In this document: positions 1,440 through 16,382 of the stretch, one piece after another
How positions within the stretch are numbered: position 1 is the first letter of the stretch
How the letters are laid out: each line of letters starts with the position of its first letter
Assembly (NCBI RefSeq): GCF_016107685.1
Contig: NZ_JABASY010000001.1
Coordinates: forward strand, 648,187-712,186
Length of the DNA stretch: 64,000 bases
From: Brevibacterium yomogidense
Lineage (GTDB): Bacteria; Actinomycetota; Actinomycetes; Actinomycetales; Brevibacteriaceae
Reading direction: 5' to 3'
Position numbers and translations under genes: made by a program
Notes under the pieces: generated by a model
The model's input: only the letters and a program-made list of their open reading frames with translations
Told to the model about the DNA's origin: nothing
The model's database searches: none

Positions 1440-1862
1440 ATGAACACCCCGGAGAACATCGCTTACACGGCACGCGCAGAAGTCACGGGAGGTCGTGACG
1501 GGCACGGCGCCACGGACGACAAGACGCTCGAGGTCGACCTCCGCGCACCCAAGGAGATGGGCGGCGCGGGCGGCGGCACGAACCCGGAGCAGCTCTTCGC
1601 GATCGGCTACGGCGCCTGCTTCCAGGGAGCCCTGGGCCTGGCGGGCAAGGAGATGGGCGTCGACACGTCCGACTCCGTCGTCAACGCAGAGGTGGGCATC
1701 GGCAAGGAGGGCGAGAGCTTCGGTCTGAGCGTCAAGCTCTCCGTCAGCCTGCCGGGCGTCGACAAGGACCAGGCGCAGAAGCTCGTCGACCGCACTCACG
1801 AGCTGTGCCCCTACTCGAAGGCCACCCGCGGGAACATCCCCGTCGAGGTCGTCGCAGTCTGA
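1440..1862 (+). CDS. ohr: Organic hydroperoxide resistance protein (Ohr/OsmC family)
   Basis: Thiol peroxidase that reduces organic and fatty-acid hydroperoxides in the cytosol. At 140 residues it is full length for Ohr. Both catalytic cysteines are visible: Cys60 in NPEQLFAIGYGACFQGAL and Cys123 in ELCPYSKATRGN. The N-terminal AEVTGGRDGH pattern is the usual Ohr beginning. The start ATG is preceded by GAGGAG. Many actinobacterial ohr genes sit beside a MarR-type OhrR, but none is next to this one. It is followed by a strong hairpin and faces the convergent ABC transporter operon. Confidence 0.95.
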   Translation: MNTPENIAYTARAEVTGGRDGHGATDDKTLEVDLRAPKEMGGAGGGTNPEQLFAIGYGACFQGALGLAGKEMGVDTSDSVVNAEVGIGKEGESFGLSVKLSVSLPGVDKDQAQKLVDRTHELCPYSKATRGNIPVEVVAV

Positions 1863-1935: not shown

Positions 1936-4014
1936 TCAGATCGCCAGCGTCTGGAGGTCCAGCACCTGCGTGTCGAGCGGACGGGGGATCGCTGCGAGCA
2001 GCCGCTTCGTGTACGGGTCCTCCGGCCGCGCGAACACCTGGTCCACCGGCCCGGACTCCACCTGCCGCCCCCGCGACATGACGGTGACGGAATGCGCGAT
2101 CTGCCGCACCACCGCCAGGTCGTGCGAGATGAACAGGTACGTGAGCCCCAGCTCCTCCTGCAGCCCCTGGATGAGGTCGAGGATCTGCGACTGCACCGTC
2201 ACGTCCAGCGCGGACACGGCCTCGTCGAACACGACCAGCCGCGGTTCGATGACCAGCGCGCGGGCGATCGCGATGCGCTGCAGCTGCCCGCCGGACAGCT
2301 CCCGCGGACGCCGCGACGCCAGCGCCGGATCCAGCGCGACCGTCTCCATCGCCTGCGCCACCCGGTCCGTACGCTCCGCCTTCGACCCGATCCGGAAGTT
2401 CCGCAGCGGCTCCGCGATCGACGCCCCCACCGCATGTGCAGGATCCAGCGCGCTCGCCGGGTTCTGATGCACCAGCTGCACCGTCTTCCGGAACTCCCGC
2501 AGCTGCTTCTTCGTGAGGGCCTCCGCCTGGTAGTCGCCTACCCGGATCGTGCCGGACTGCGGCGTGTAGAACCCCGCGAGCGCTCGCCCGATCGTCGACT
2601 TCCCCGACCCCGATTCGCCCACCAGGCCCAGGGTCGTCCCCTCCGGCACGGTGAAGCCCACGTCCTCGATGCCGATGATCGCGGACCCTGCGGCCTCGCC
2701 CTCGTGCACCTCGTCCGTCTCCTCCCGCGGCACCCGCGCGAACACCTGCGTGAGTCCGCGGACCTCGACGAGGTCGGCAGCGGGAGATGAGGGCACCTCG
2801 GCGGTGGTGCCGGTCGAGGTCGGGGCGGCACCTGCGGCGCCGGGCACTGCCGGCCCGGCACCTGCGGAACCGGACACTGCGGGCCCGGCACCCGTCGACG
2901 GTCCTGCTGTGGCGGCCTCGCCGGCCCCGGGCGCACTCCGCACCGCCCCGCGCAGCGTCTGCATCGACGGCGCGTCGGCCAGGAGCCGGCGCGTGTAGTC
3001 GCTCTCCGGCCTGCCCAGCAGGCGGCGCGCAGGGCCGCGCTCCTCGACGATCCCGTTGCGCACGACGACCAGGTCGTTCGCCCGCTCCGCCGCGACCGCC
3101 AGGTCATGGGTGATGAAGAGGATGCCGGTGCCGGCGTCGCGGCGCAGATCGTCCAGCAGGTCGAGGATCCGCTTCTGCACCGTCACGTCCAGTGCGGACG
3201 TCGGCTCGTCGGCGATGAGCAGCTGCGGGTCCAGGCTGATCGCCGCCGCGATGAGTGCGCGCTGCCGCATGCCGCCGGACAGCTCGTGCGGGTACTGCTC
3301 CGCCCGCATCTGCGGCCGGTCGATCCCCACCCGGTCCAGCAGCTCGTGGACGCGGGCCCGCCGAGCATCCGCCCCCAGCCCGGTGTGCAGCCGCAGCGAC
3401 TCCGCGACGTTCGCCCCCACCGTCTTGAGCGGGTTGAGGGACGTGCCCGGGTCCTGAGGGATGTATCCGATCCGTGCCCCGCGCACCCGCTGCCACTGGG
3501 TGGGTGACAGTGTCCGCAGATCCAGCTCCGGGTCGTCACCGTGGGCCCCCAGCTGGATGTCACCGCTGGTGACCTGCGCGTTCGCCGCGAGCAGCCCGAT
3601 GACCGCACCCGCCGTCGTCGACTTCCCCGACCCGGATTCGCCCACGACCGCGGTCACGGCGCCGGCCCGGATGTCCAGGTCAATGTCCCTGATCGCCGCG
3701 GTCGGCTCCCCGGACCGCGTCGCATACGACACTCCCAGCCCGCGGACAGTGAGCACGGAGGCCGCGCCCGAGGCCCCGGTCGCCTCCGCGAACGACTCCG
3801 GGTACTCGATGGAGTAGTCGATGCCGATCCGGCTCTGGTACTTGGCGGGCGTGCCGGTGCCGATGCCGCGGGAACCGGGTTTGACGGGTGGGAGGTGGGG
3901 GGAGGGCTGCGGGAGGTGGGAAGACTGCGGGGAGTGGGGAGAAGACCGAGGGGGGTGGGACCTCGACTGCGGGGGGTGGGACGAGTTCGGCTGCTCGGGG
4001 AGGTCGCTGCTCAT
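1936..4014 (-). CDS. Oligopeptide/nickel-type ABC transporter, fused double ATPase
   Basis: ATP-hydrolysing subunit that combines the DppD and DppF roles in one 692-residue chain. An unusual Ser/Pro/His-rich N-terminal leader (about residues 1-50) precedes the first ABC domain, with Walker A GESGSGKST near 125, signature LSGGMRQR near 245 and Walker B LLIADEPTSALD near 265. A Gly/Ala/Pro linker leads to the second domain (Walker A GESGSGKST, signature LSGGQLQR, Walker B LVVFDEAVSALD). Its ATG overlaps the stop of the upstream permease (ATGA at 4011-4014), which fixes the start. It is the last gene of a four-gene operon with two permeases and a lipoprotein. The substrate cannot be read from the ATPase. 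Confidence 0.9.
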   Translation of the reverse strand: MSSDLPEQPNSSHPPQSRSHPPRSSPHSPQSSHLPQPSPHLPPVKPGSRGIGTGTPAKYQSRIGIDYSIEYPESFAEATGASGAASVLTVRGLGVSYATRSGEPTAAIRDIDLDIRAGAVTAVVGESGSGKSTTAGAVIGLLAANAQVTSGDIQLGAHGDDPELDLRTLSPTQWQRVRGARIGYIPQDPGTSLNPLKTVGANVAESLRLHTGLGADARRARVHELLDRVGIDRPQMRAEQYPHELSGGMRQRALIAAAISLDPQLLIADEPTSALDVTVQKRILDLLDDLRRDAGTGILFITHDLAVAAERANDLVVVRNGIVEERGPARRLLGRPESDYTRRLLADAPSMQTLRGAVRSAPGAGEAATAGPSTGAGPAVSGSAGAGPAVPGAAGAAPTSTGTTAEVPSSPAADLVEVRGLTQVFARVPREETDEVHEGEAAGSAIIGIEDVGFTVPEGTTLGLVGESGSGKSTIGRALAGFYTPQSGTIRVGDYQAEALTKKQLREFRKTVQLVHQNPASALDPAHAVGASIAEPLRNFRIGSKAERTDRVAQAMETVALDPALASRRPRELSGGQLQRIAIARALVIEPRLVVFDEAVSALDVTVQSQILDLIQGLQEELGLTYLFISHDLAVVRQIAHSVTVMSRGRQVESGPVDQVFARPEDPYTKRLLAAIPRPLDTQVLDLQTLAI

Positions 4015-4931
4015 TCGGCTGCCTTTCTCAGTGCGGTGCCCAGGCGGTGCGTGGAGACCACGACGGCCATGACGATGAGGCCCGGGAGGACGGTGAGCCA
4101 CCAGGCGGTGGCGACGAAGTTGCGGCCTTCCGCGATGATGAGGCCCCATTCGGGGGTGGGAGCGGGTGCGCCGTAGCCCAGGAAGCCCAGGGTGGAGATC
4201 TGGAGGATCGCGCTGCCGACCTGCAGGACTGCAAGAGCGAGCACCGACGACACCGCGTTCGGCACGACGTGGCGCAGCAGCACCGACCAGTAGGTGCCGC
4301 CGGATCCGTAGGCGGCCTGCACGTAGTCCGCCTGCATGATCGTGACGGCCTGCGACCGGGACAGGCGGGCGAACTGGGCGATGGCTGTGATGCCCACCGC
4401 GATGGCGACGTTGACGATGCCGAAGCCCAGCACGATGACGATCGTGAGGCTCAGCAGCAGTGCGGGGATCGACAGGAGCACGTCGACGATCCGCATGAGC
4501 ACTTCGCCGACCCAGCCGCCGCGCGAACCGGCGATGAGTCCGATCGCGGAGCCCACGACGAGCCCCACCCCCACCGCGATGAGCGCGGCGAGCAGCGAGC
4601 GGGACGCCCCGTGGACGACGCGCGAGTAGACGTCGCGGCCGATCTGATCGGTGCCGAACCAGTGCTCCGCCGACGGGCCGAGCAGTGCAGCGGTGTCCCC
4701 GCCGTCCACCGGATCGTGGCCGGTGAAGAGGCCGGGGACCAGTGCCCAGATGATCGTGACGCCCAGGATGACCGCGGCGATGATTGTGCCCGGCGTGAAG
4801 AAGCTGCGCACGGTGGAGGGGCGGCCGCTGCGTCCCCGGCCCCGGCCCAGGCGCCCCGGACCGCTCTGATCGGTCGATGTCTGTGCGGTGGTGGAGCGGG
4901 CATCGGCGCCCGCGAGTTCGACGGTGCTCAT
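4011..4931 (-). CDS. Peptide-type ABC transporter permease (DppC-like)
   Basis: Inner-membrane channel subunit, 306 residues. It has a hydrophilic N-terminal tail of about 45 residues, a first membrane segment (GTIIAAVILGVTIIWALVPG) and then the DppC hallmark HWFGTDQIGRDVYSRVVHG. The BPD_transp_1 domain follows, with an EAA-like loop near AAYGSGGTYWSVLLRHVVPNAVS. It overlaps the neighbouring permease stop by 4 bases (ATGA), so the three membrane and ATPase genes are translationally coupled. Confidence 0.9.
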   Translation of the reverse strand: MSTVELAGADARSTTAQTSTDQSGPGRLGRGRGRSGRPSTVRSFFTPGTIIAAVILGVTIIWALVPGLFTGHDPVDGGDTAALLGPSAEHWFGTDQIGRDVYSRVVHGASRSLLAALIAVGVGLVVGSAIGLIAGSRGGWVGEVLMRIVDVLLSIPALLLSLTIVIVLGFGIVNVAIAVGITAIAQFARLSRSQAVTIMQADYVQAAYGSGGTYWSVLLRHVVPNAVSSVLALAVLQVGSAILQISTLGFLGYGAPAPTPEWGLIIAEGRNFVATAWWLTVLPGLIVMAVVVSTHRLGTALRKAAE

Positions 4932-5914
4932 GACGTGGCTCCCTTCAGCTGTCTGCGTGCCGCCTTCCCCACCCGACCGCGGTGGCGCAGGCGCGGGTCG
5001 ATGAGCGGGTAGAGCAGGTCGACGACGAGGTTGACGATCACGAACCCGACCGTCGCGATGACGACGATCGCCAGCAGCACCGGGTTGTCCCGGTTCGCGA
5101 CGGCCTGCGCGGTGAGGCTGCCCAGGCCGTTGCGGCCGAACACCGTCTCCGTGACGACGGCACCGGCGACCAGCTCACCGAACAGCAGACCCGCGATCGT
5201 GAGGGCCGGCAGCGTCGCGTTGCGGATGACCGCGTTGACCAGCAGCCATCCCTCGGAGGCCCCCTTCGCGCGGGTGACGTGGACGAAGGACTGGGCCCGC
5301 ACCTCGGCGACGGCCCGGATGAGCACCTGCGCCAGCGGTGCCGACAGCGGGATCGCAAGGGTGAGCGTCGGCAGGATGAGTGCCTCGACGGGCCCCGGGT
5401 CGACGACGTTCACCCAGCCCAGCTGGAAGCTGAGCACCTGGATGATGACGATGCCCAGCCAGAACACCGGCACGGACACGAAGAGGCTGGGAGCGGAGTC
5501 GATCGCGGTCGCAAGCCACGCCGGCTTGCCGTAGGAGGCGAGCACCGTGACGATCAGCGCCAGCAGGACCGCGGCGACGAACCCGCACAGTGCGAGCACC
5601 GCGGTGGACGGCAGGGCTGCGGCGATGAGTGTGGCGACCGCGGCACCCGAATTCACGGAGAAGCCGAAATCGCCCCGCAGGAACCCGGTGAACGACTGCC
5701 AGTACTGGATGTACCAGGGGGCATCCGCACCGTAGGAGTCGCGGATCGCCTCGACCTGATCCGCGGACAGTCCCAGGGCGGGGTTCGCGAACCGGGCGAG
5801 CACGCCGTCGCCGGGCAGGATCATGAGCAGCAGGGCGGCGAGCGTGTACGCGAGGAACAGGACGAGCACGGCCTGCCCCAGGCGGGACGCCACATAGCGG
5901 AGTGTGGGGGACAA
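4928..5914 (-). CDS. Peptide-type ABC transporter permease (DppB-like)
   Basis: Inner-membrane channel subunit, 328 residues. The N-terminus is typical of DppB (YVASRLGQAVLVLFLAYTLAA), followed by a periplasmic loop with PWYIQYW and LRGDFGFSV and the permease domain with FARVTRAKGASEG-like coupling residues (HVTRAKGASEGWLLVNAVIRNATLPA). The start follows the lipoprotein stop by two bases, with no separate promoter visible. It pairs with the DppC-like gene downstream to form the transport channel. Confidence 0.9.
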   Translation of the reverse strand: MSPTLRYVASRLGQAVLVLFLAYTLAALLLMILPGDGVLARFANPALGLSADQVEAIRDSYGADAPWYIQYWQSFTGFLRGDFGFSVNSGAAVATLIAAALPSTAVLALCGFVAAVLLALIVTVLASYGKPAWLATAIDSAPSLFVSVPVFWLGIVIIQVLSFQLGWVNVVDPGPVEALILPTLTLAIPLSAPLAQVLIRAVAEVRAQSFVHVTRAKGASEGWLLVNAVIRNATLPALTIAGLLFGELVAGAVVTETVFGRNGLGSLTAQAVANRDNPVLLAIVVIATVGFVIVNLVVDLLYPLIDPRLRHRGRVGKAARRQLKGATS

Positions 5915-5916
5915 GA

Positions 5917-7695
5917 TCAGGCGCTCCTCTCCTGGTCCGCGAGCCAGACGGAGTAGAACCGGGGGCGGCCCACCGGCTCCGTCGCGAAGCCCTGCACGGC
6001 GCGGCGGAAGCCGAACACCTGCGGCTCCTCGAACAGCGGCACCACCTGGGCCTGGTCGACGAAGTGGTCCTGGAGCTCCGCGACGGCGGCCTCACGGTCC
6101 TCTGCGCGGGCGGAGCCGGTGACCTTCGCGAGGATCCGCTCGACCTCCTCATCACCCCACTCGCCGGTCTCCGCGTCCTCGTTGAGGAACGCGTTGCGGT
6201 TGTCGACCGACCACTGGCTGGCGACCACGTCGTAGTCCGCGCGCGCCACCATCGAGTGGTAGATCTGCACGCGGTCCAGGTTGGCGGAGTCGATCGTCTG
6301 CTGCGCCTGGTCGCCCTCGTTGATGAGGAGCCGCACGCCCACGCGGCGGAAGTCCTCCTGGACGAGGCTCTGCACCTCCCGCGACCGCGGCTGGGGCAGG
6401 GCGATGTTCACCCGCACGCTCAGCATGGTGCCGTCCTTCACGCGGTAGCCGCCGTCCGCGGGTCGCTGCCAGCCGGCCTCGTCGAGCAGCGCGTTCGCCG
6501 CCTCCGGGTCGTACGCCCACGCTCCGGGCGCTTCGACGTAGCCTGCCGCACCGCGGGCCAGGATGCCGGTGGCGACGGGGTAGTTGTCGGTGAAGAGTTT
6601 GCTGACGATGCGCTCCCGGTCGATCGCGGCGGTGAGCGCTCGGCGCACCCGGAGGTCGGACAGGACCGGGTCGCGCTGGCGGAGCGTCATGCAGTTGTTG
6701 ATGCCGTTGGTGGGCTGCGCGAACAGCTGGATGCCCTTCTCCACGATGCGGGCCTCGTCCGGCGCCTGGACGTCGCGCACACCGTCGGCCTGTCCGGACA
6801 CCAGCGCGCCGATCCGCACGGAGTACTCCGCGTTCACCAGGTAGTCGAGCCCGTCGAGGTACGCGCGGCCCTGGTGCTCGAAGTGGGGCGGGGCCCAGTC
6901 GTAGTCCTCGCGGACGCGGATGGACAGGCGGGTGCCGACGACCTCCTCCGCGATGTAGAACGGGCCGGACGTCGCGACCCCGGTCGCCCGCCCGGGGCCG
7001 AACCCCTCCGAGTCGAGGTCGAGAGTCGCGGATGACAGGAGCCCCTGATTCATCGTCGACGTGGCCTGCGGGAAGCCGGGCGACGGCGCGTCGAACCGGA
7101 AGACGACGGTGCGGTCGTCGAGGACGTCGCTGCCCGCGTAGTTCGTGATCTGCTCCGAGATCGGCAGCCCGCGCGCGTTGTCGCCCAGCCCGAACAGGTC
7201 GAAGTTCTGCGCGACGTTCTCCGCGTCCAGCGGGGACCCATCGGAGTAGGTGACCCCCTCGCGGATGCGGAAGGTGAACTCCGTGGCGTCGTCGTTGACC
7301 TCCGGCAGCTCCTCCGCGATCCACGGGTGCAGCTCGAGGGTCTCCTCGTCCTGGTACAGCAGCCGGTCGGTGATGTTGTTGACGATGCCGCCGTTCGGGT
7401 AGAACCCGGCCTGCGGCGGGAACAGCGTCGTCCACGTGAGCGGCTCGAAGTACCGCAGGACGCCACCCGGCACCGGTTCCCCCGTCACGTCGAGAGGCGA
7501 CGTGTCCGTGGGCGTGCAGGCGGCCAGCGTGAGCAGGGCGCCGAGGCCCAGGCCGCCTCCCAGCACCGCTCGCCGGGAAACGGGCTGGGCGGGAGTGGAA
7601 AGGGCGGGAGCGGAAAGGGCGGAGCCGGGACGAGCGGGGATGAAGCGGGCGGGGGTGGATCGGGCTGGGATGGAGCGGTGGTTCAGAGGAGGCAC
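5917..7695 (-). CDS. Family 5 extracellular solute-binding lipoprotein
   Basis: Substrate-binding protein of the ABC operon (SBP_bac_5; DppA/NikA/OppA type). The export signal combines a twin-arginine-like SRRAVLGGG, a hydrophobic stretch and the lipobox LTLAAC. The family signature region (FRIREGVTYSDGSPLDAENV) is clear. The start is uncertain: I use the GTG at 7695, but the frame stays open to a GTG at 7794 and neither has a good ribosome binding site. The pre-signal region is a repetitive Pro/Ala/Ser stretch encoded by purine-rich tandem sequence. The long leader before it contains a small Cys-ended ORF (7850-7927), which suggests a sulfur-containing ligand; that is inference. Confidence 0.85.
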   Translation of the reverse strand: MPPLNHRSIPARSTPARFIPARPGSALSAPALSTPAQPVSRRAVLGGGLGLGALLTLAACTPTDTSPLDVTGEPVPGGVLRYFEPLTWTTLFPPQAGFYPNGGIVNNITDRLLYQDEETLELHPWIAEELPEVNDDATEFTFRIREGVTYSDGSPLDAENVAQNFDLFGLGDNARGLPISEQITNYAGSDVLDDRTVVFRFDAPSPGFPQATSTMNQGLLSSATLDLDSEGFGPGRATGVATSGPFYIAEEVVGTRLSIRVREDYDWAPPHFEHQGRAYLDGLDYLVNAEYSVRIGALVSGQADGVRDVQAPDEARIVEKGIQLFAQPTNGINNCMTLRQRDPVLSDLRVRRALTAAIDRERIVSKLFTDNYPVATGILARGAAGYVEAPGAWAYDPEAANALLDEAGWQRPADGGYRVKDGTMLSVRVNIALPQPRSREVQSLVQEDFRRVGVRLLINEGDQAQQTIDSANLDRVQIYHSMVARADYDVVASQWSVDNRNAFLNEDAETGEWGDEEVERILAKVTGSARAEDREAAVAELQDHFVDQAQVVPLFEEPQVFGFRRAVQGFATEPVGRPRFYSVWLADQERSA

Positions 7696-7849
7696 GGAGG
7701 TCTTTTCGTCCGAAGAGCGCGGGAAGCCCAAGCGTGGTGAGCACGCGAAGGTACAGGAGTCACGCGAGGTGCGGTCGCACGCGGGCAGGGGCACAGGAGG
7801 CCGGATGCGGGTGCGTGAGGGGGCTGACGGCCGGGGCCGGCAGGTCAGC

Positions 7850-7927
7850 TCAACAAGACGACGTGGTGACGACCATGTTGTCGATGTGCCGGCGGCGCCA
7901 GCACAGCAGGGTGTCGAGTCGTGTCAT
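7850..7927 (-). CDS. Putative cysteine-responsive leader peptide (uORF)
   Basis: A 25-codon ORF in the leader of the peptide-type ABC operon. Its second half, RRRHIDNMVVTTSSC, ends in Cys immediately before TGA and fits the RRH(V/I)D...(S/A)xC pattern of short actinobacterial peptides often annotated as 'putative leader peptide' ahead of transporter or sulfur genes. A codon-1 alternative GTG lies directly upstream (7930). The candidate promoter at 7938-7966 would start transcription about at this GTG/ATG, so translation may be leaderless. In mycobacteria, Cys-rich leaderless uORFs attenuate downstream genes in response to cysteine supply; the same role here is inferred. The substrate of the downstream transporter may therefore contain sulfur. 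Confidence 0.6.
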   Translation of the reverse strand: MTRLDTLLCWRRRHIDNMVVTTSSC

Positions 7928-7937
7928 CACGTAGGAG

Positions 7938-7966
7938 ATCACACCACCGATCGCTTGAAGTGTCAA
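7938..7966 (-). promoter_or_regulatory. Candidate promoter of ABC operon and its leader ORF
   Basis: On the minus strand TTGACA (7966-7961) is followed after 17 bases by TGTGAT (7943-7938). The -35 is consensus, the -10 matches four of six. The predicted start, near 7930-7932, coincides with the GTG/ATG of the small leader ORF. About 230 bases of leader then separate it from the lipoprotein gene. Confidence 0.45.
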
Positions 7967-8659: not shown

Positions 8660-8831
8660 CTCGTGCCCCGCGTCGCTGTGCTGGCGCCGTGCCGCCGTGC
8701 GCCGCGCCATACGCGATGCTCTTTGACTTGCGCACATGGTGAGTTGTGCGGGCCAAACACCTGGAATACCGTCGGAGGAAATCAAGCGGTGGGCGTGCCC
8801 CACCGCGGTCTCGGAGCGGTGGAGGTGCGTG

Positions 8832-9791
8832 ATGGCGGTTTCGCCTCGGCGGAATGCGTGGAAGACGGTGAGTGCGGCAGCTGGTGCGGCGACGCTGCTG
8901 GCGCTCACCGGGTGTGCGGGCGACGCGGCAGGCCAGGGCTCCGATGGTGGTGACCCCGCCGGTGAGGGCCTGCCGGTCGTGCTCACGACCTTCACGGTGC
9001 TCGCGGACATCGCGCAGAACGTCGCGGGGGAGCAGCTGGAGGTCGTCTCCCTCACGAAGCCGGGCGCGGAGATCCACGGCTACGAGCCCACCCCGGCGGA
9101 TCTGCGCCGCGCGCAGGACGCGGACCTCGTTATCGACAACGGCATGGGTCTGGAGGCATGGTTCGACCGGTTCTTCGCGGACGTCGACGCCCCGCGCGTG
9201 GTGGCCTCCGACGGCATCGACCCCCTCGACATCGCGGAAGACGCATACGCGGGCGCACCCAACCCCCACGCGTGGATGAGCCCCCTGAACGTCCAGACCT
9301 ACGTCGACAACATGGAGGACGCCTTCGCGGAGCTGGCCCCGGAATCAGCCGACGAGTTCGCAGCGAACGCGGAGGCCTACAAGAGCAGCCTGCAGGACGT
9401 CCACGACGAACTCATGAGCGACCTGGAGGAGGTTCCCGCCGGTCAGCGGGCGCTCGTCACCTGTGAAGGGGCCTTCAGCTACCTCGCGCAGGACGCGGGG
9501 CTCGACGAGGCGTATCTCTGGGCAGTGAACGCGGAGGGCGAGGGCACTCCGCAGCAGGTCCGCGACGTCATCGAGTACGTCGACGGGAACAGCATCCCGG
9601 CGGTGTTCTGCGAATCGACCGTGTCGGACGCCGGCATGCAGCAGGTGGTTGCCGCGACGGACGCGGAATTCGGCGGGACGCTCTACGTCGACTCCCTCTC
9701 CGAACCCGGTGGCGAGGTCCCCACCTACCTCGACCTCATCCGCTACGACGCGGAGACCATCACCGCCGCTCTCACCGGAGGCGCCCAGTGA
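8832..9791 (+). CDS. Mn/Zn ABC transporter metal-binding lipoprotein
   Basis: Cluster A-I (ZnuA/MntA/TroA-type) metal-binding protein, 319 residues. It has a signal peptide with lipobox ALTGC and the expected metal ligands: His in GAEIHGYEPTP, His in PNPHAWMSP, Glu in CEGAFSYLAQDAG, and Asp in YVDSLSEPGG. The short acidic rather than His-rich loop and the Glu third ligand fit manganese-type members better than zinc-type. The start at 8832 is chosen because GGAGG lies six bases before it and a typical signal peptide follows. GTGA overlap couples it to the ATPase gene. An MntR-like regulator sits 4 kb downstream. Confidence 0.9.
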   Translation: MAVSPRRNAWKTVSAAAGAATLLALTGCAGDAAGQGSDGGDPAGEGLPVVLTTFTVLADIAQNVAGEQLEVVSLTKPGAEIHGYEPTPADLRRAQDADLVIDNGMGLEAWFDRFFADVDAPRVVASDGIDPLDIAEDAYAGAPNPHAWMSPLNVQTYVDNMEDAFAELAPESADEFAANAEAYKSSLQDVHDELMSDLEEVPAGQRALVTCEGAFSYLAQDAGLDEAYLWAVNAEGEGTPQQVRDVIEYVDGNSIPAVFCESTVSDAGMQQVVAATDAEFGGTLYVDSLSEPGGEVPTYLDLIRYDAETITAALTGGAQ

Positions 9792-10636
9792 CCGCGCGGC
9801 GACCGGCAGGCACCCCGGAGCCCGCGACCACCCGGGAACCCGCGACCACGCCGGAGTCGGCCCCACCGGAGTCGGCCCTGCCGGAGTCGGCGCCACCGGT
9901 GCCCGCGCCGGGCCTCGAAGTGGTCGACGCCACCGTGCGGTACGGCAGCCTCCTGGCGCTCGACGACGTGAGCCTGCGGGTGGACTTCGGTCGGGTCTGC
10001 GGCCTCATCGGGGTCAACGGGTCCGGGAAGTCGACGCTGTTCAAGACGATCATGGGGCTCGTCGCCGCGGACGCCGGCAGCGTGCGTATCGCGGGGGAGT
10101 CGATCGCGCGTGCCCGCACCAGGGCGACCGTGTCCTACGTCCCGCAGCACGAGGACGTGGACTGGGGCTTTCCCGTCTCCGTCCGCGACGTCGTCATGAT
10201 GGGCCGCTACCCGCATCAGGGCTTCACGCGGCGACCGCGCGCCGCGGACCGTGCGGCGGTCGCCGACGCGATCGAGCGGGTCGGCCTGTCCGACCTCGCA
10301 GGTCGGCAGATCGGGCGACTGTCCGGCGGGCAGAAGCGGCGGGTGTTCGTCGCCCGCGGCATCGCCCAGGGGGCGCGGGTGCTCCTCCTCGACGAGCCGT
10401 TCGCCGGCGTCGACACGACCTCCCAGTCCCTCATCACGGACCTCCTGCGGGAGCTCGCCGCAGACGGCGCGGCGGTGCTCGTGTCCACGCACGACCTCAC
10501 GACGCTGCCGGACCTCGCGGACGAGGCGGCACTGCTCCTGCGCCGGCTCGTCGCCCAAGGACCACCCGCGGACGTCCTCAGGCCGGACGTGCTCTCCCAG
10601 GCCTTCGGCCTCTCGATCCAGGACGGTACCCCGTGA
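9788..10636 (+). CDS. Mn/Zn ABC transporter ATP-binding protein
   Basis: Cytoplasmic ATPase of the metal uptake system, 282 residues. It has a Pro/Thr/Glu-rich N-terminal extension of about 35 residues with PPESALPES-type repeats, then an ABC domain with Walker A GVNGSGKSTLFKT, the Q-loop VPQHEDVDW typical of metal-type ATPases, signature LSGGQKRRVFVARG and Walker B VLLLDEPFAGVD. Its GTG start overlaps the stop of the binding-protein gene (GTGA), and its own stop overlaps the permease GTG. Confidence 0.92.
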   Translation: MTARRPAGTPEPATTREPATTPESAPPESALPESAPPVPAPGLEVVDATVRYGSLLALDDVSLRVDFGRVCGLIGVNGSGKSTLFKTIMGLVAADAGSVRIAGESIARARTRATVSYVPQHEDVDWGFPVSVRDVVMMGRYPHQGFTRRPRAADRAAVADAIERVGLSDLAGRQIGRLSGGQKRRVFVARGIAQGARVLLLDEPFAGVDTTSQSLITDLLRELAADGAAVLVSTHDLTTLPDLADEAALLLRRLVAQGPPADVLRPDVLSQAFGLSIQDGTP

Positions 10637-11595
10637 TCCCCGCTCTCCTCACCACGACCATGACCCCTCTCGCCACCCTCACGGCCCCTCTCACCACCAC
10701 CTCTCCCGCAGCCGTCACCACCGTCCTCAGCACGGTGACGACCTGGCTGACGGAGCCCCTCACGTACGACTTCATGCTGCGGGCGATGGCGATCACGGCG
10801 GTGGCGGCGTTCGTCTGCGCACTGCTGTCGTGCTGGCTGATCCTCATCGGCTGGTCGCTCATGGGCGATGCCGTGTCGCACGCCGTGCTGCCCGGTGTGG
10901 TCCTCGCCTACATCGTGGACCTGCCGTTCGCGGTGGGTGCGGTGGCGTTCGGCCTCATCGCGGTCCTGCTCATCGGCATCGTGCGGGACACCAGTCGGAT
11001 CAAGGAGGACGCCGTCATCGGCATCGTCTTCACCGCGCTCTTCGCGCTGGGCATCGTCCTCGTGTCCGTCACTCCCAGCCACGTCGATCTGGGGCACATC
11101 GTGTTCGGCAACCTCCTGGGGGTGTCGCCCTCCGTGCTCGTCCAGGTCGCTCTGCTGGCGGGGATCGTGTCCACGGTCCTTCTCCTCAAGCGCCGGGACC
11201 TCATGCTCATGGCGTTCGACCCGGTCCACGCCCACGCGATCGGTCTGAGCCCCCGTGTGCTGAGCGGCCTTCTGCTCGTGATGCTGGCGCTCACCTCGGT
11301 GGCGGCGCTGCAGGCGGTGGGGGTCGTGCTCGTCGTCGCGATGCTCATCATCCCCGGCGCCACCGCGCACCTGCTCACGGACCGATTCAGTCGGATGCTC
11401 GTCATCGCGGCGACGGTCGCGGTCGTCTCCTCGCTGGCAGGTGCGTACCTGAGCTACTGGTGGGACACCTCGGCGGGAGGGATGGTCGTGCTCGCGCAGG
11501 CGGCCGTGTTCGCGCTCGTCTACCTCTTCGCACCCCGCGAAGGTGTGGTGACCGGGCGGATCCGTGCGCGTCGCAGAGCCGCCGCGCCCGCATGA
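10633..11595 (+). CDS. Mn/Zn ABC transporter permease
   Basis: ABC-3 family membrane permease, 320 residues, with about eight hydrophobic segments beginning at MLRAMAITAVAAFVCALLSCWLILIGWSLMGDAVSHAVLPG, the conserved signature of this family. The start is the GTG overlapping the ATPase stop (GTGA at 10633-10636). An N-terminal Thr-rich stretch of about 40 residues precedes the first helix, and an Arg/Ala-rich tail ends the protein. The family usually dimerises to form the channel for the binding protein and ATPase encoded upstream. Confidence 0.9.
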   Translation: MIPALLTTTMTPLATLTAPLTTTSPAAVTTVLSTVTTWLTEPLTYDFMLRAMAITAVAAFVCALLSCWLILIGWSLMGDAVSHAVLPGVVLAYIVDLPFAVGAVAFGLIAVLLIGIVRDTSRIKEDAVIGIVFTALFALGIVLVSVTPSHVDLGHIVFGNLLGVSPSVLVQVALLAGIVSTVLLLKRRDLMLMAFDPVHAHAIGLSPRVLSGLLLVMLALTSVAALQAVGVVLVVAMLIIPGATAHLLTDRFSRMLVIAATVAVVSSLAGAYLSYWWDTSAGGMVVLAQAAVFALVYLFAPREGVVTGRIRARRRAAAPA

Positions 11596-11704
11596 TGTGT
11601 CAGCATGGCGGGTGGACAGACGCACCCCTGTGAGTTCGGGTGCGGCCTCCGCGGATCGATGTCGCGGGCCGCACTCCACTTCCCCACGAACAGAGGTTCA
11701 CTAC

Positions 11705-13819
11705 ATGCATTCGCGACCCCTGGGCGCGCTGGTCGGCGGAACGACCGCGCTCCTCTCCCTGCTCACGCTCTCCGCCGGACCCTCGCTCGCCGCGATCGAC
11801 GAGCAGCCGGAGACCTCCGAATCGGACCTCCTGGGCGTCGACGAGGAAGGCCTGGGGCTGCCCGGCGCCCGCTCCTCGTCGACCGCGACCTCCGCCGCCA
11901 CCCGGACCCTCACAACGAACCTGCCGTCCCTGCTGCGGGCACCCGCCGCACAGACACAGGCGTCGGCGGCGTTCACCCAGGCGATCGCCCACCACGTGCG
12001 AAATTCCGGTGCCGCAAGTGCCGCAAGTGCCGCAAGTGCCGCGGGTGATCGAGGGCCGGCGCCGGCTGCTGCGGTCGGTGGTGCTGCTGCGGGCGGTGCG
12101 CACGCGGCGCCCACCGGGGGTGCGACCGGTGGTGGGAGCGCGGTCGGTGGTGCGCAAGCGGCGCCCGCCGGGGCATCCCCGAGTGAGTTCGAATCGTCCC
12201 CAAATCTGTCATCCACGGACGAATTGCACTCACTCGGTGGTGGTGCGGCGGCGACGACCGCCTCGGACACGGCGATCGAATCGGCCGAGCCCCAGCCGTA
12301 CGGCTCGGTCGCCGAGACGACGGAGGACGGCATCGCGATCGCCGCGCTGTCGCAGGAGATGGTGCTGCCGGACGATGCGCCGGCGGTCGTCGGCCTCGTC
12401 TACGACGAGCAGTCCGACGTCGAATTCGAGGTCCGCACCCAGCAGGACGGTGAGTGGTCCGACTGGAACCACATCCACGTCGAGGATGCGGACGACGGCA
12501 ATCCGGGCACGGACCCCTACTACGTGGTCGGGGCGGAGAGTCTGCAGGTGAGGATCCTCGGCGACGACTGGGACCCCAGCGGCACCCGGATCCTCCTCGT
12601 CGACCCCAAGACGAAGGAATCCGACGCCGAGGCGGTCCGCGACAACCAGCCCATCGCCCCTCCCACGGAGGTGCCCGCTGAAGCTCCCACTGAGGCTCCC
12701 ACTGAGCCGCCCACAGAGGTGCCCGTCGAGGACGGGACGCAGGCGGAGCAGGCGGCGGCGCACCCCGGCCACAGGACGAACGGCGCCGCGTGCACTGGCG
12801 CAGGCTGCTCCTGCCCGCAGTGCGCGGGGGCCGCCGTGGCGAACGCGGGGATGACGGTCAACGCGGGACTGGCCGTGGAGACCGGGCACACGGCCGGGCG
12901 CTCAATGACAGCCAAGAACTCTGAGACGGCCGGAAGCACTGCGACAGCCGGGACCACCGCGCAAACCGGAAGCACTGCGACAGCCGGGACCACCGCGCAA
13001 GCCGGGACCGCCGCACGTGTTGTGAACACCTCGGCGTCCGTGAAGAAGGTCGACAAGCCGACGGTCCGCAGCCGGAAGGACTGGGGTGCGGACGAGAAGC
13101 TCGGCAGCACGGACCCGGCGATCGCCTCGGAGGCGACCGCCGCGGTCGTCCATCACACCGACGGGCAGAACGACTACGACGCAGAGGACGTGCCCGCGAT
13201 CCTGCGCGGCATCCACACCTTCCACGTGGACGGCCGCGGCTGGGACGACGTGGGCTACAACATGTTCGCGGACTCCTACGGGCGGCTGTGGGAGGGCCGG
13301 GCCGGTGGCCTGGACAAGGCGGTCGTGGGCGCGCACGCGGCCGGCTACAACACAGGCACCTTCGGGATCTCCGTCCTGGGCTCCTACGGGTCGAAGGCCC
13401 CGCCGCAGAAGACGCTCGACGCCGTGAGCGGTGCGATCGCCTGGAAGCTGTCGCTCAGCGGGACGTCCGCGGACGCGAAGACGACCGTGTCCGGCGACAC
13501 GATCCGCACCGTCGTGGGCCACCGCGACGTGGGAGAGACGAGCTGCCCGGGCGGGGCGTTCTACGAGAAGCTCGGCGGCGTGCGGTCCACGGCCGTGGAG
13601 ATCCAGGAGGGGAAGCGCAGCGTCGACCCCCAGGACGACAAGGCCGAAGACAAGAAGGCCGACGACAAGAAGAAGGACGAGAAGGCCAAGGACGAGAAGT
13701 CCGGCGAGGCCGGGGACGACAAGGCGAAGGCCGAAGACAAGAAGGGCGGGGACGGGTCGGGTGACGACGACCTCGGCGGTGGGGTCCAGGACCTCATGCC
13801 GGGCGTCGAAGAGGACTGA
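11705..13819 (+). CDS. Secreted PGRP-type N-acetylmuramoyl-L-alanine amidase
   Basis: Predicted zinc amidase that cleaves the amide bond between muramic acid and the stem peptide outside the cell; 704 residues. Signal peptide (GALVGGTTALLSLLTLSAGPSLAA), then a long low-complexity Ala/Gly part with AAS repeats, then a conserved actinobacterial module (about residues 205-300; VVGLVYDEQSDVEFEVRTQQDGEW). Next come PTE repeats and two 12-residue repeats, then the Amidase_2/PGRP domain (about 455-630). Zinc ligands are visible in VVHHTDG and GHRDVGETSCPGG, with GYNMFADSYGRLWEGRAGG between. The tail is a Lys/Asp/Glu repeat of about 55 residues. The start at 11705 follows an AGAGG; the upstream open frame lacks a signal peptide. 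Confidence 0.88.
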   Translation: MHSRPLGALVGGTTALLSLLTLSAGPSLAAIDEQPETSESDLLGVDEEGLGLPGARSSSTATSAATRTLTTNLPSLLRAPAAQTQASAAFTQAIAHHVRNSGAASAASAASAAGDRGPAPAAAVGGAAAGGAHAAPTGGATGGGSAVGGAQAAPAGASPSEFESSPNLSSTDELHSLGGGAAATTASDTAIESAEPQPYGSVAETTEDGIAIAALSQEMVLPDDAPAVVGLVYDEQSDVEFEVRTQQDGEWSDWNHIHVEDADDGNPGTDPYYVVGAESLQVRILGDDWDPSGTRILLVDPKTKESDAEAVRDNQPIAPPTEVPAEAPTEAPTEPPTEVPVEDGTQAEQAAAHPGHRTNGAACTGAGCSCPQCAGAAVANAGMTVNAGLAVETGHTAGRSMTAKNSETAGSTATAGTTAQTGSTATAGTTAQAGTAARVVNTSASVKKVDKPTVRSRKDWGADEKLGSTDPAIASEATAAVVHHTDGQNDYDAEDVPAILRGIHTFHVDGRGWDDVGYNMFADSYGRLWEGRAGGLDKAVVGAHAAGYNTGTFGISVLGSYGSKAPPQKTLDAVSGAIAWKLSLSGTSADAKTTVSGDTIRTVVGHRDVGETSCPGGAFYEKLGGVRSTAVEIQEGKRSVDPQDDKAEDKKADDKKKDEKAKDEKSGEAGDDKAKAEDKKGGDGSGDDDLGGGVQDLMPGVEED
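12932..13003 (+). repeat. Two 36-bp direct repeats inside the amidase gene
   Basis: Adjacent copies at 12932-12967 and 12968-13003 encode the 12-residue unit GSTATAGTTAQ(T/A). Shorter 9-bp repeats (GTGCCGCAA, about 12009-12044) occur earlier in the same gene. Both keep the frame, so repeat-number change would vary linker length without breaking the protein. Confidence 0.85.
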
Positions 13820-13853
13820 GGGGCCGCCCGATCCCGGCGGATAGGCTGAGGCC

Positions 13854-14663
13854 ATGTCCGTCTCCCAGCTGTCGATCAGCACGCAGAACTACCTCAAGGT
13901 GATCTGGAGCCTGCAGGAATGGTCGGACGCACCCGCGTCGCCCGGGCGGATCGCGGAGAAGACGGGGCTGCACCTGTCGACGGTGTCCGGGGCGATGCCC
14001 AAGCTCGCGGAGCAGGGACTCGTCGAGCACGTGCCGTACAGCGGGGTGAGGCTCACCGACGCCGGTCGCGCGATCGCCGTCGCGATGGTGCGGAGGCACC
14101 GGCTCATCGAGACGTTCCTCGTCCGCACGCTGGGGTACGGCTGGGAGCAGGTGCACGACGAGGCCGAACACCTGGAGCACGCGGTGTCCGACTTCATGAT
14201 CGACCGGATCGACGCCGTGCTGGGCCACCCCGCGCGGGACCCCCACGGCGACCCGATCCCCGCGGCGGACGGGACGGTGGACCGGCCGGAGGCGACACCC
14301 CTGTCCGAGGTCGCCGCGCGCCTCACCGATGCGGCCGAGCGGGCGCGGGTGCGGGTGGAGCGGATCTCCGACGAGGATTCGGGCCTCCTGCTGCACCTGG
14401 CCTCCCGCGGCATCACCGTGGGCGCGAGCCTGGAAGTGGGAGGCGGGGACCCGTACTCGGGAACTCTCCTCGTCGAGGTCGTCGCATCGGCAGGCACTGC
14501 GGAGGGAGGCGCCCAGGTGGACGCTGCCGGCGACGGGGGCCCGATGGATGTTGAGGACGGTGCGTCGCAGGCGACCCCCTCGGGCGTGGTGCCGGCCACG
14601 GTCGCGGAGCCGACGAGCCTGAGCGTCGACGCCGCCTCGCACGTCTACGTCTCACCCCTATAG
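13854..14663 (+). CDS. DtxR/MntR-family metal-dependent repressor
   Basis: One-component regulator, 269 residues: winged helix at residues 8-70 (GRIAEKTGLHLSTVSGAMPKLAEQGLV), dimerisation and metal-binding domain to about 150, then a C-terminal FeoA/SH3-like part. The key metal position reads HDEAEHLEH: where iron-sensing DtxR has Cys in its EACRWEH segment, this protein has Glu105, as in manganese-sensing MntR. His82 in the MVRRHRLIETFL helix is also present. It is therefore more likely a Mn sensor, fitting the metal ABC transporter 2 kb upstream on the same strand. The long C-terminal extension (after about 225) is not typical and has no recognised motif. Confidence 0.88.
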   Translation: MSVSQLSISTQNYLKVIWSLQEWSDAPASPGRIAEKTGLHLSTVSGAMPKLAEQGLVEHVPYSGVRLTDAGRAIAVAMVRRHRLIETFLVRTLGYGWEQVHDEAEHLEHAVSDFMIDRIDAVLGHPARDPHGDPIPAADGTVDRPEATPLSEVAARLTDAAERARVRVERISDEDSGLLLHLASRGITVGASLEVGGGDPYSGTLLVEVVASAGTAEGGAQVDAAGDGGPMDVEDGASQATPSGVVPATVAEPTSLSVDAASHVYVSPL

Positions 14664-14816: not shown

Positions 14817-15479
14817 ATGGCGATCACGACAGCATTCGACCACCTCGTCTACGTCGTCCCGGATCTAGCGGCGGGAGTCGAGCAGTTCGCGCAGACCACC
14901 GGGGTGCAGCCCGTCTACGGCGGTGCGCACGTGGGGAAGGGGACGGCCAACTACCTGGTGCGCCTGCAGCCCGCCGGGTGGGAGGAGACTCCGCGGCCGC
15001 TCACCTACCTCGAGATCCTCGGGCCGGACCCGGAGCAGGACCTCGACGACGGTGTCGAGCGTCCGCTGGGTGTCGACGACGTCGACGCGCCGCGGCTGCA
15101 GACGTGGGCGATCCACCCGGACGGGTTCGACGCCGTGCTCCAGCGTGCGGAGGCGGAAGGCGTGGACTTCGGCGAAGCGCGCGACATGTCACGTCGGACC
15201 CCCGAGGGCGACCTCCTGGAGTGGCGCCTCACGACCCGGGGTGCCCTGCCGTTCCACGGACTCCAGCCGTTCCTCATCGACTGGGGCGACTCCCCGCACC
15301 CGGCCTCACGCGACCTGCCCGTCCTCACCCTCGAATCGCTCACCCTCACCCATCCGGACGCCACCGGGCTGCGGCCCCACCTGGGTGTCCTGGGTGCGAG
15401 CGGCACCGAGGTCGAAGAAGGCCCCGCACCCGCGATGCACGCCCGGCTGGGGACCCCGAACGGCACGGTGACGATCTGA
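14817..15479 (+). CDS. Glyoxalase-like (VOC) protein
   Basis: 220-residue protein of the Glyoxalase-like (PF13468-type) group: it begins FDHLVYVVPDLAAGVEQF, then GGAHVGKGTANYLVRL, then TYLEILGPDP, then DMSRRTPEGDLLEWRL and PFLIDWGDSPHPA. These proteins are cytoplasmic and mostly of unknown substrate. His in FDHLV and Glu in YLEILG are candidate metal or active-site residues by analogy to VOC enzymes. Directly abutting it (TGA followed at once by ATG) is a paralogue, so the two are an operon and a tandem duplication. Confidence 0.8.
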   Translation: MAITTAFDHLVYVVPDLAAGVEQFAQTTGVQPVYGGAHVGKGTANYLVRLQPAGWEETPRPLTYLEILGPDPEQDLDDGVERPLGVDDVDAPRLQTWAIHPDGFDAVLQRAEAEGVDFGEARDMSRRTPEGDLLEWRLTTRGALPFHGLQPFLIDWGDSPHPASRDLPVLTLESLTLTHPDATGLRPHLGVLGASGTEVEEGPAPAMHARLGTPNGTVTI

Positions 15480-16382
15480 ATGGCCAGTGACGCCGCGCGT
15501 CCGCCAGTGGATGATTCTGGTCCGGCAGCCGGTTCCGCTCCAGTTGACAGTTCTGGTCCGGCCTCCGGAGAACCTCCGGGGTCCGGTTCCCCCACGGCAC
15601 CCGGCGTCGTCCGCACCTTCGATCACCTGGTCGTCGCGGTGCCGGACCTCGCCGCGGGTGTCCGCGAGTTCGAGCTGCTCACCGGGGCCCGCACCGTCCC
15701 CGGCGGCAGCCATCCCGGCCGCGGCACCGCGAACCACCTCGTGCCGCTCATCCCGCGTGGCTGGGAGGGCGCGCCGCTCACCTACCTCGAGATCCTCGGC
15801 CCCGATCCCGCGCAGGACCCCGCGCTCGCCGCTCGCTCCCTGCCGGGCGTGACGGGACTGTGCGCGCAGCGGTGGGCCGCCCACCCCACCGGCTTCGACG
15901 CGGCCGTCGCCCGCGCGGACCAGGCCGGGGTCGACTACGGCGACGTGTTCGACATGAGCAGGCACACCCCGGACGGCGGCCTGCTCGCGTGGCGGCTCAC
16001 CCGCCGGACACCCCTGGCGCACGGCGGCGCGCAGCCGTTCCTCATCGACTGGGGCAGTTCGCCGCACCCGGCGCACGGACTGCGCCCGCAGCCCACCTCG
16101 TCACAGTTCACGACTGCAGACCCCGCCGCCTCCGACCCCGCCGCCTCCGACCCCGCCGCCTCTGACCCCGCCGCCCCCGCTCCTGCCGCCGAGGCGCCGG
16201 TCACCCTCCTCCTCGAGCGTCTCGAGTTCTTCGGTCCGGATCCGGAGCGGCTGTCCGACGCGATCCGCGTGCTCACGGAGGAGCAGGTCAGCGTCGAAGC
16301 TGCCGCGGAGTCGGGGTTCCGCGCGACCATCAGTGGACCGCGAGGGGAGCTGACGCTCACGAGTGTGGGCGTCCACCCCTGA
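15480..16382 (+). CDS. Glyoxalase-like (VOC) protein, tandem paralogue
   Basis: 300-residue paralogue of the upstream gene with the same landmarks (FDHLVVAVPDLAAGVREF, GGSHPGRGTANHLVPL, TYLEILGPDP, DMSRHTPDGGLLAWRL, PFLIDWGSSPHPA). It differs by a 40-residue N-terminal Pro/Ser extension and by a spacer of about four SDPAA repeats (15-bp units, about 16125-16185) before its last beta-rich segment. Start and upstream stop abut, implying co-translation. The repeats sit between two otherwise conserved parts and are probably a flexible linker. Substrate unknown. Confidence 0.78.
   Translation: MASDAARPPVDDSGPAAGSAPVDSSGPASGEPPGSGSPTAPGVVRTFDHLVVAVPDLAAGVREFELLTGARTVPGGSHPGRGTANHLVPLIPRGWEGAPLTYLEILGPDPAQDPALAARSLPGVTGLCAQRWAAHPTGFDAAVARADQAGVDYGDVFDMSRHTPDGGLLAWRLTRRTPLAHGGAQPFLIDWGSSPHPAHGLRPQPTSSQFTTADPAASDPAASDPAASDPAAPAPAAEAPVTLLLERLEFFGPDPERLSDAIRVLTEEQVSVEAAAESGFRATISGPRGELTLTSVGVHP

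Follow-up and report, generated by a model that had tools for sequence, protein, structure and literature searches.

A predicted leaderless, cysteine-terminated leader peptide upstream of a probable sulfur-compound ABC importer operon in Brevibacterium

The window, meaning the whole 64,000-nt stretch of DNA that was analysed, carries an ABC transporter operon on its minus strand, preceded by a short upstream ORF (uORF) and a C-rich leader (Table 1). The best named orthologues were those of B. jeotgali, B. senegalense and B. yomogidense (86–89% identical). An Ohr/OsmC peroxiredoxin gene (1440–1862, plus strand) is convergent with the end of the operon. On the other side, the plus strand holds a metal ABC transporter with an AztC/EfaA-like binding protein (8736–14663); the same segment includes a peptidoglycan-recognition-like protein and a DtxR/MntR-like regulator, both named by eye only. 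A glyoxalase-like gene pair follows at 14817–16382 (plus strand), about 7 kb from the leader. A similar pair was found in the relative L055, where two glyoxalase-like genes (L055:12152–13509, plus strand) are divergent from the leader.

Table 1. Features of the leader and the ABC operon in the window, with related leaders found at MetQ/NlpA genes
Feature	Position	Strand	Remarks
-35 hexamer TTGACA	7961..7966	-	sequence and spacing kept in the genus
-10 hexamer TGTGAT (candidate)	7938..7943	-	placed by spacing; TTAGAT in sister species L051/L052
Leaderless uORF (predicted)	7850..7930	-	GTG start 7930-7928, 26 codons plus TGA: VMTRLDTLLCWRRRHIDNMVVTTSSC
Terminal Cys codon TGT and stop TGA	7850..7855	-	presumed cysteine-sensing point
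C-rich, G-poor leader, uORF stop to first structural gene	7696..7849	-	154 nt; candidate Rho loading region
Substrate-binding lipoprotein, TIGR04028 family	5917..7695	-	725 bits against a cut-off of 468.5; GTG start at 7695 predicted
ABC permease, Opp/Nik type	4928..5914	-	profile matches
ABC permease, Opp/Nik type	4011..4931	-	profile matches
Duplicated ABC ATPase	1936..4149	-	two ABC_tran matches; open frame, true start inside the range
26-codon leader before MetQ/NlpA	L134:1471-1551, L135:1471-1551, L139:1471-1551	+	three Brevibacterium genomes

The minus-strand ORF at 7850–7966 ends in RRRHIDNMVVTTSSC-stop, with the stop codon TGA at 7850–7852. The hexamers TTGACA (7966–7961) and TGTGAT (7943–7938) are separated by 17 nt, and GTGATGACACGACTC begins seven bases past TGTGAT on the minus strand. 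When the letters were checked on this strand, the Cys-ended ORF and the arrangement TTGACA-N17-TGTGAT were found as a preliminary description of this DNA had reported them. The length of 25 codons given there counts from the ATG at 7927–7925. The start is probably the GTG at 7930–7928, which gives 26 codons, because this GTG lies 36 nt after the first base of TTGAC, a distance conserved in the relatives. Such a distance is that expected of a leaderless mRNA. The leaderless geometry proposed earlier recurred in 41 other Brevibacterium orthologues, with 35–37 nt between TTGAC and the start. Besides its single terminal Cys, the window uORF has another Cys at codon 10, and no Cys codons are consecutive.

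Both strands of the 64 kb were searched for the same layout, that is, TTGAC 34–38 nt before a Cys-ended ORF of 8–59 codons starting with ATG or GTG. The window uORF was the single site on either strand. Markov-1 random sequence of the same dinucleotide make-up gave 0.17 sites in 64 kb, or 0.02 when the distance was fixed at 36 nt. An Rfam scan of the window gave nothing at the gathering score. A search of the window genome for the RRHxD...C pattern revealed no second leader among the 30 of 31 pattern loci that were read.

Conservation of the uORF and of its terminal Cys, which the preliminary description had named as a check, was examined in 46 Brevibacterium genomes, including that of the window, with a TIGR04028 protein over the cut-off; G057 was left out as it belongs to another genus. 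A Cys-terminated uORF (TGT-TGA) lay upstream of the operon in 43 of the 46 orthologues. In 42 of the 46, the distance from TTGAC to the uORF start was 35–37 nt, and 39 combined this distance with 26 codons. Two orthologues had a uORF of 8 codons (MRTNGADC) and one had 28 codons, with the same promoter spacing; one Cys-terminated uORF had no promoter because the contig ends there. The three exceptions were L018, with the same frame and no Cys, L042, frameshifted in a C run, and L053, ending in CCCH. The frameshift in L042, a draft genome, may be a sequencing error. The final codon was TGT in all 43 Cys-terminated orthologues, whereas genes prefer TGC (26 TGT to 75 TGC in the window). In L015 and L032, which have the 8-codon leader, the apparent start codon of the binding-protein gene is a TTG that overlaps the uORF end.

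Outside the genus, 51 orthologues (from Rothia, Microbacterium, Leucobacter, Corynebacterium and others) taken from a search of genome contigs were without such a uORF. Therefore, the uORF at the TIGR04028 operon is a feature of Brevibacterium, and a broader origin for the leader of this operon was rejected.

The window peptide has an RRxHxD core and a Cys close to the stop. It matched no NCBIfam or Pfam leader model and did not reach the cut-off of NF042934 (27 bits), so direct identification by HMM was abandoned. The orthologous leader of a relative, MQTQPEGRMLWRRLHIDLKRLTSSNC, scored 30.8 bits against NF042934; it also matched NF042936 (Ms4527A Cys-rich leader) weakly, below the cut-off. 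A genus search with NF042934 gave eight Brevibacterium genomes over the cut-off, all at the locus of the TIGR04028 operon. The earlier suggestion of likeness to actinobacterial RRHxD...C leaders is thus borne out by relatives that exceed the cut-off. Leaders of this type are widespread in Actinobacteria, with matches in 198 of the 297 genomes sampled from the class and in 0 of 14 controls. The genes behind the NF042934 members examined included sulfite/nitrite reductase, cysteine synthase, sulfatase, rhodanese and two luciferase-like monooxygenases. No explanation of the role of the conserved RRxHxD...C peptide was found in the literature searched.

In the tree of the binding protein, two deep clades carry the RRxHxD core, and L048 carries it as well. 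The core is missing from L010, L011/L013, L027 and a clade of 18 members, which corresponds to at least three losses on the tree. In the core-bearing clade, single-base codon differences were concentrated at third positions and 51% of them were synonymous (24% expected), a fraction that is descriptive since the sequence pairs are non-independent; the uORF of this clade is therefore likely to be translated. In the motif-less clade, 22% were synonymous (25% expected), to be read in the same descriptive way, and the excess at third positions was absent; the start, the length and ATTGTTGAACTATC around the stop were invariant or nearly so. Judged by eye, it is unlikely that the motif-less peptides were derived from the RRxHxD peptide by a simple frameshift.

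These patterns bear on whether the RRxHxD...C peptide could be an arrest peptide, one whose response to cysteine, or to a small molecule related to it, would arise within the ribosome tunnel and not from a stall at a codon. The coding constraint in the core-bearing clade and the occurrence of the motif throughout Actinobacteria would fit such a peptide. However, the motif was lost repeatedly while TGT-TGA was kept, one lineage retains only MRTNGADC-stop, and the constant element is the Cys codon and not the peptide, so that an arrest peptide is quite improbable. On the sequence comparison, the RRxHxD motif is dispensable over evolutionary time and the terminal UGU-UGA is not, which is the new part of the finding. 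It is proposed tentatively that the Brevibacterium attenuator is peptide-independent, its sensor being a UGU that immediately precedes the stop and stands at a constant distance (26 codons) from the 5' end of the mRNA. Several lineages would have replaced RRxHxD with unconstrained sequence, one would have shrunk the leader to eight codons, and one clade would have rebuilt it as a folded RNA possibly sequestering the ribosome-binding site. Brevibacterium offers a natural experiment, in which orthologous leaders with and without the motif end in the same Cys codon.

No intrinsic terminator (a G+C-rich hairpin followed by a T run) was found in the leader. The spacer between the uORF and the binding-protein gene has a C content of 0.47 and a G content of 0.25. 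In the 60 nt after the uORF stop of the window the C excess is 0.28, a value reached by only 0.6% of random windows. Nearly all orthologues had a C-rich, G-poor spacer behind the stop, with a mean C-G excess of 0.20 (versus 0.00 +/- 0.11). Because the stall point would lie directly at the stop and the spacer is C-rich, a block of Rho of the kind known from tnaC is the simplest reading. On base composition alone, Rho rather than another off-switch is given slightly less than an even chance.

RNA folding was used to consider translational attenuation, in which the uORF RNA would pair with the Shine-Dalgarno (SD) region of the binding-protein gene until a stalled ribosome frees it. A mechanism of this kind has been described for the cysteine genes of M. 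smegmatis (PMC13236596). An alignment of 14 sequences of the motif-less clade gave a consensus fold in which uORF nt 8–19 pair with CCCGAAGGA at the SD and which also includes a uORF hairpin (RNAalifold z = -3.45). Compensatory changes occurred in 5 of 23 pairs; for example, columns 34–63 are C-G in six sequences and U-A in five. However, changes on both sides that preserve pairing were found at only one pair of the SD-paired helix. Across the genus, the uORF-SD duplexes were no better than those of shuffled uORFs (mean z about 0). Masking the footprint of a stalled ribosome left the SD closed, and folding the downstream part alone changed little. SD sequestration was therefore rejected as a general mechanism, and translational attenuation is considered unlikely for the leader. 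Since the fold of the motif-less clade is convincing, has compensatory pairs and includes the SD in a helix, translational control may operate in that clade. In motif-less leaders (L014, L021, L024 and other members of alignment A1), nt 13–17 could alternatively pair with nt 26–30, an arrangement that could make a four-segment attenuator.

The genus search also yielded, below the NF042934 cut-off, VTTRLLDPLCWRRLHIDLMRVTTVIC in G011 and close variants in G030 and G008. These leaders have 26 codons, a GTG start, TTGAC 36 nt upstream and TGT-TGA at the end, and they stand about 500 nt ahead of a MetQ/NlpA lipoprotein gene. The TIGR04028 matches of the three genomes are under the family cut-off. 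The leader was absent from fifty other MetQ upstream regions examined, and the window genome has four MetQ genes, at none of which a leader was found.

The operon is longer in several species, where genes for a TIGR04027 luciferase-like monooxygenase and for a fused TIGR04029/TIGR04030 CMD-peroxidase protein extend it. MetQ and MetN-like genes were seen immediately past the operon in G015, which is sister to the window lineage. In G033, a PatB-family C-S lyase gene stands behind the ATPase gene (L060:8376–9626, minus strand), which suggests S-conjugates as substrates; G033 is also the one orthologue whose uORF is without Cys. A TIGR04028 protein over the cut-off was found in C. glutamicum. In that species, the cg2678-cg2674 operon comprises a binding protein, a permease, a duplicated ATPase and a carboxymuconolactone decarboxylase, belongs to the McbR regulon and depends on CysR (PMC2807442; PMC2580772). 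Judging by the matching gene order, the TIGR04028 protein of C. glutamicum would be cg2678. The monooxygenase, MetQN and PatB neighbours and the McbR/CysR target in C. glutamicum place the operon in a sulfur context, in line with the sulfur compound that the preliminary description had proposed as the import. The window lineage lacks the TIGR04027 monooxygenase, and the substrate assignment is therefore weaker there.

The C. glutamicum counterpart also raises promoter control by a transcription factor, as with McbR and CysR, the uORF then serving leaderless initiation or coupling only. The strong conservation of the promoter boxes in Brevibacterium would agree with this. However, a conserved upstream block present in most Brevibacterium resembles the start and -10 box of a divergent gene and is absent in the window lineage, and control at the promoter alone leaves the fixed 26-codon frame ending in TGT unexplained. 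Such control is therefore regarded as very improbable. In L055, the conserved block, with an ATG and a nearby -10-like box, suggests a leaderless divergent mRNA.

That the window uORF is a leaderless, Cys-ended leader peptide of the known actinobacterial kind, standing before a probable sulfur-compound importer, is well supported by the comparison of sequences. The preferred reading, to which we give a probability of roughly 70%, is that the 26-codon uORF acts in cis as a cysteine gauge for the ABC operon and that the operon imports an organosulfur compound. The GTG (7930) would mark the transcription start, and a 70S ribosome would initiate directly on the 5' end of the mRNA. When Cys-tRNA is plentiful, the ribosome would pass the final UGU, terminate at UGA and depart; the C-rich untranslated leader would then be open, most likely to Rho, and operon expression would be low. 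When cysteine is scarce, the ribosome would stall with UGU in its A site, covering the stop codon together with the first part of the spacer. Termination would thereby be blocked and the transporter made, which would import an organosulfur compound able to yield cysteine or sulfide. We infer ribosome stalling, the direction of the response and the class of substrate from the features described above. The leader would connect cysteine supply with the uncharacterised TIGR04027-04030 cluster and the transporter belonging to it.

One of the nearest known systems is NF042934 (cis_reg_atten, putative leader peptide, Actinobacteria), which shares the RRxHxD core, a Cys at or near the end and a place ahead of sulfur genes. 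The window peptide (RRRHIDNM) differs in falling below detection. In Brevibacterium the Cys is the very last codon and always TGT when terminal, whereas members elsewhere often have residues after it, and sister lineages in Brevibacterium have lost the motif. In E. coli tnaC, a tunnel-sensing peptide holds the ribosome at the stop, and the ribosome covers the spacer and blocks Rho. The geometry proposed here is the same, with a ribosome that is retained at the uORF end, covers the spacer and blocks Rho; the cause differs, as the stall would come from Cys-tRNA shortage at the last sense codon.

Leaderless short ORFs with polycysteine tracts have been described in mycobacteria (Shell 2015, PMC4633059; Canestrari 2020, as cited in PMC9031893 and PMC13236596). 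The Brevibacterium leader shares with them a uORF that is leaderless (predicted here), a Cys codon at its 3' end and a position before the first gene of a sulfur operon. Unlike the mycobacterial attenuators, the window uORF has a single terminal Cys and not a tract (a tract, CCC, occurs only in L053), SD sequestration was not observed across Brevibacterium as a whole, and the operon is different. A 2005 survey of Actinobacteria reported Cys leader peptides preceding the cys operon and cbs (PMC1262725). Those leaders likewise consist of a short ORF with Cys near the stop, without a terminator hairpin and with a pyrimidine-rich spacer, and Rho was proposed for them; the Brevibacterium leader differs in preceding a probable organosulfur ABC importer.
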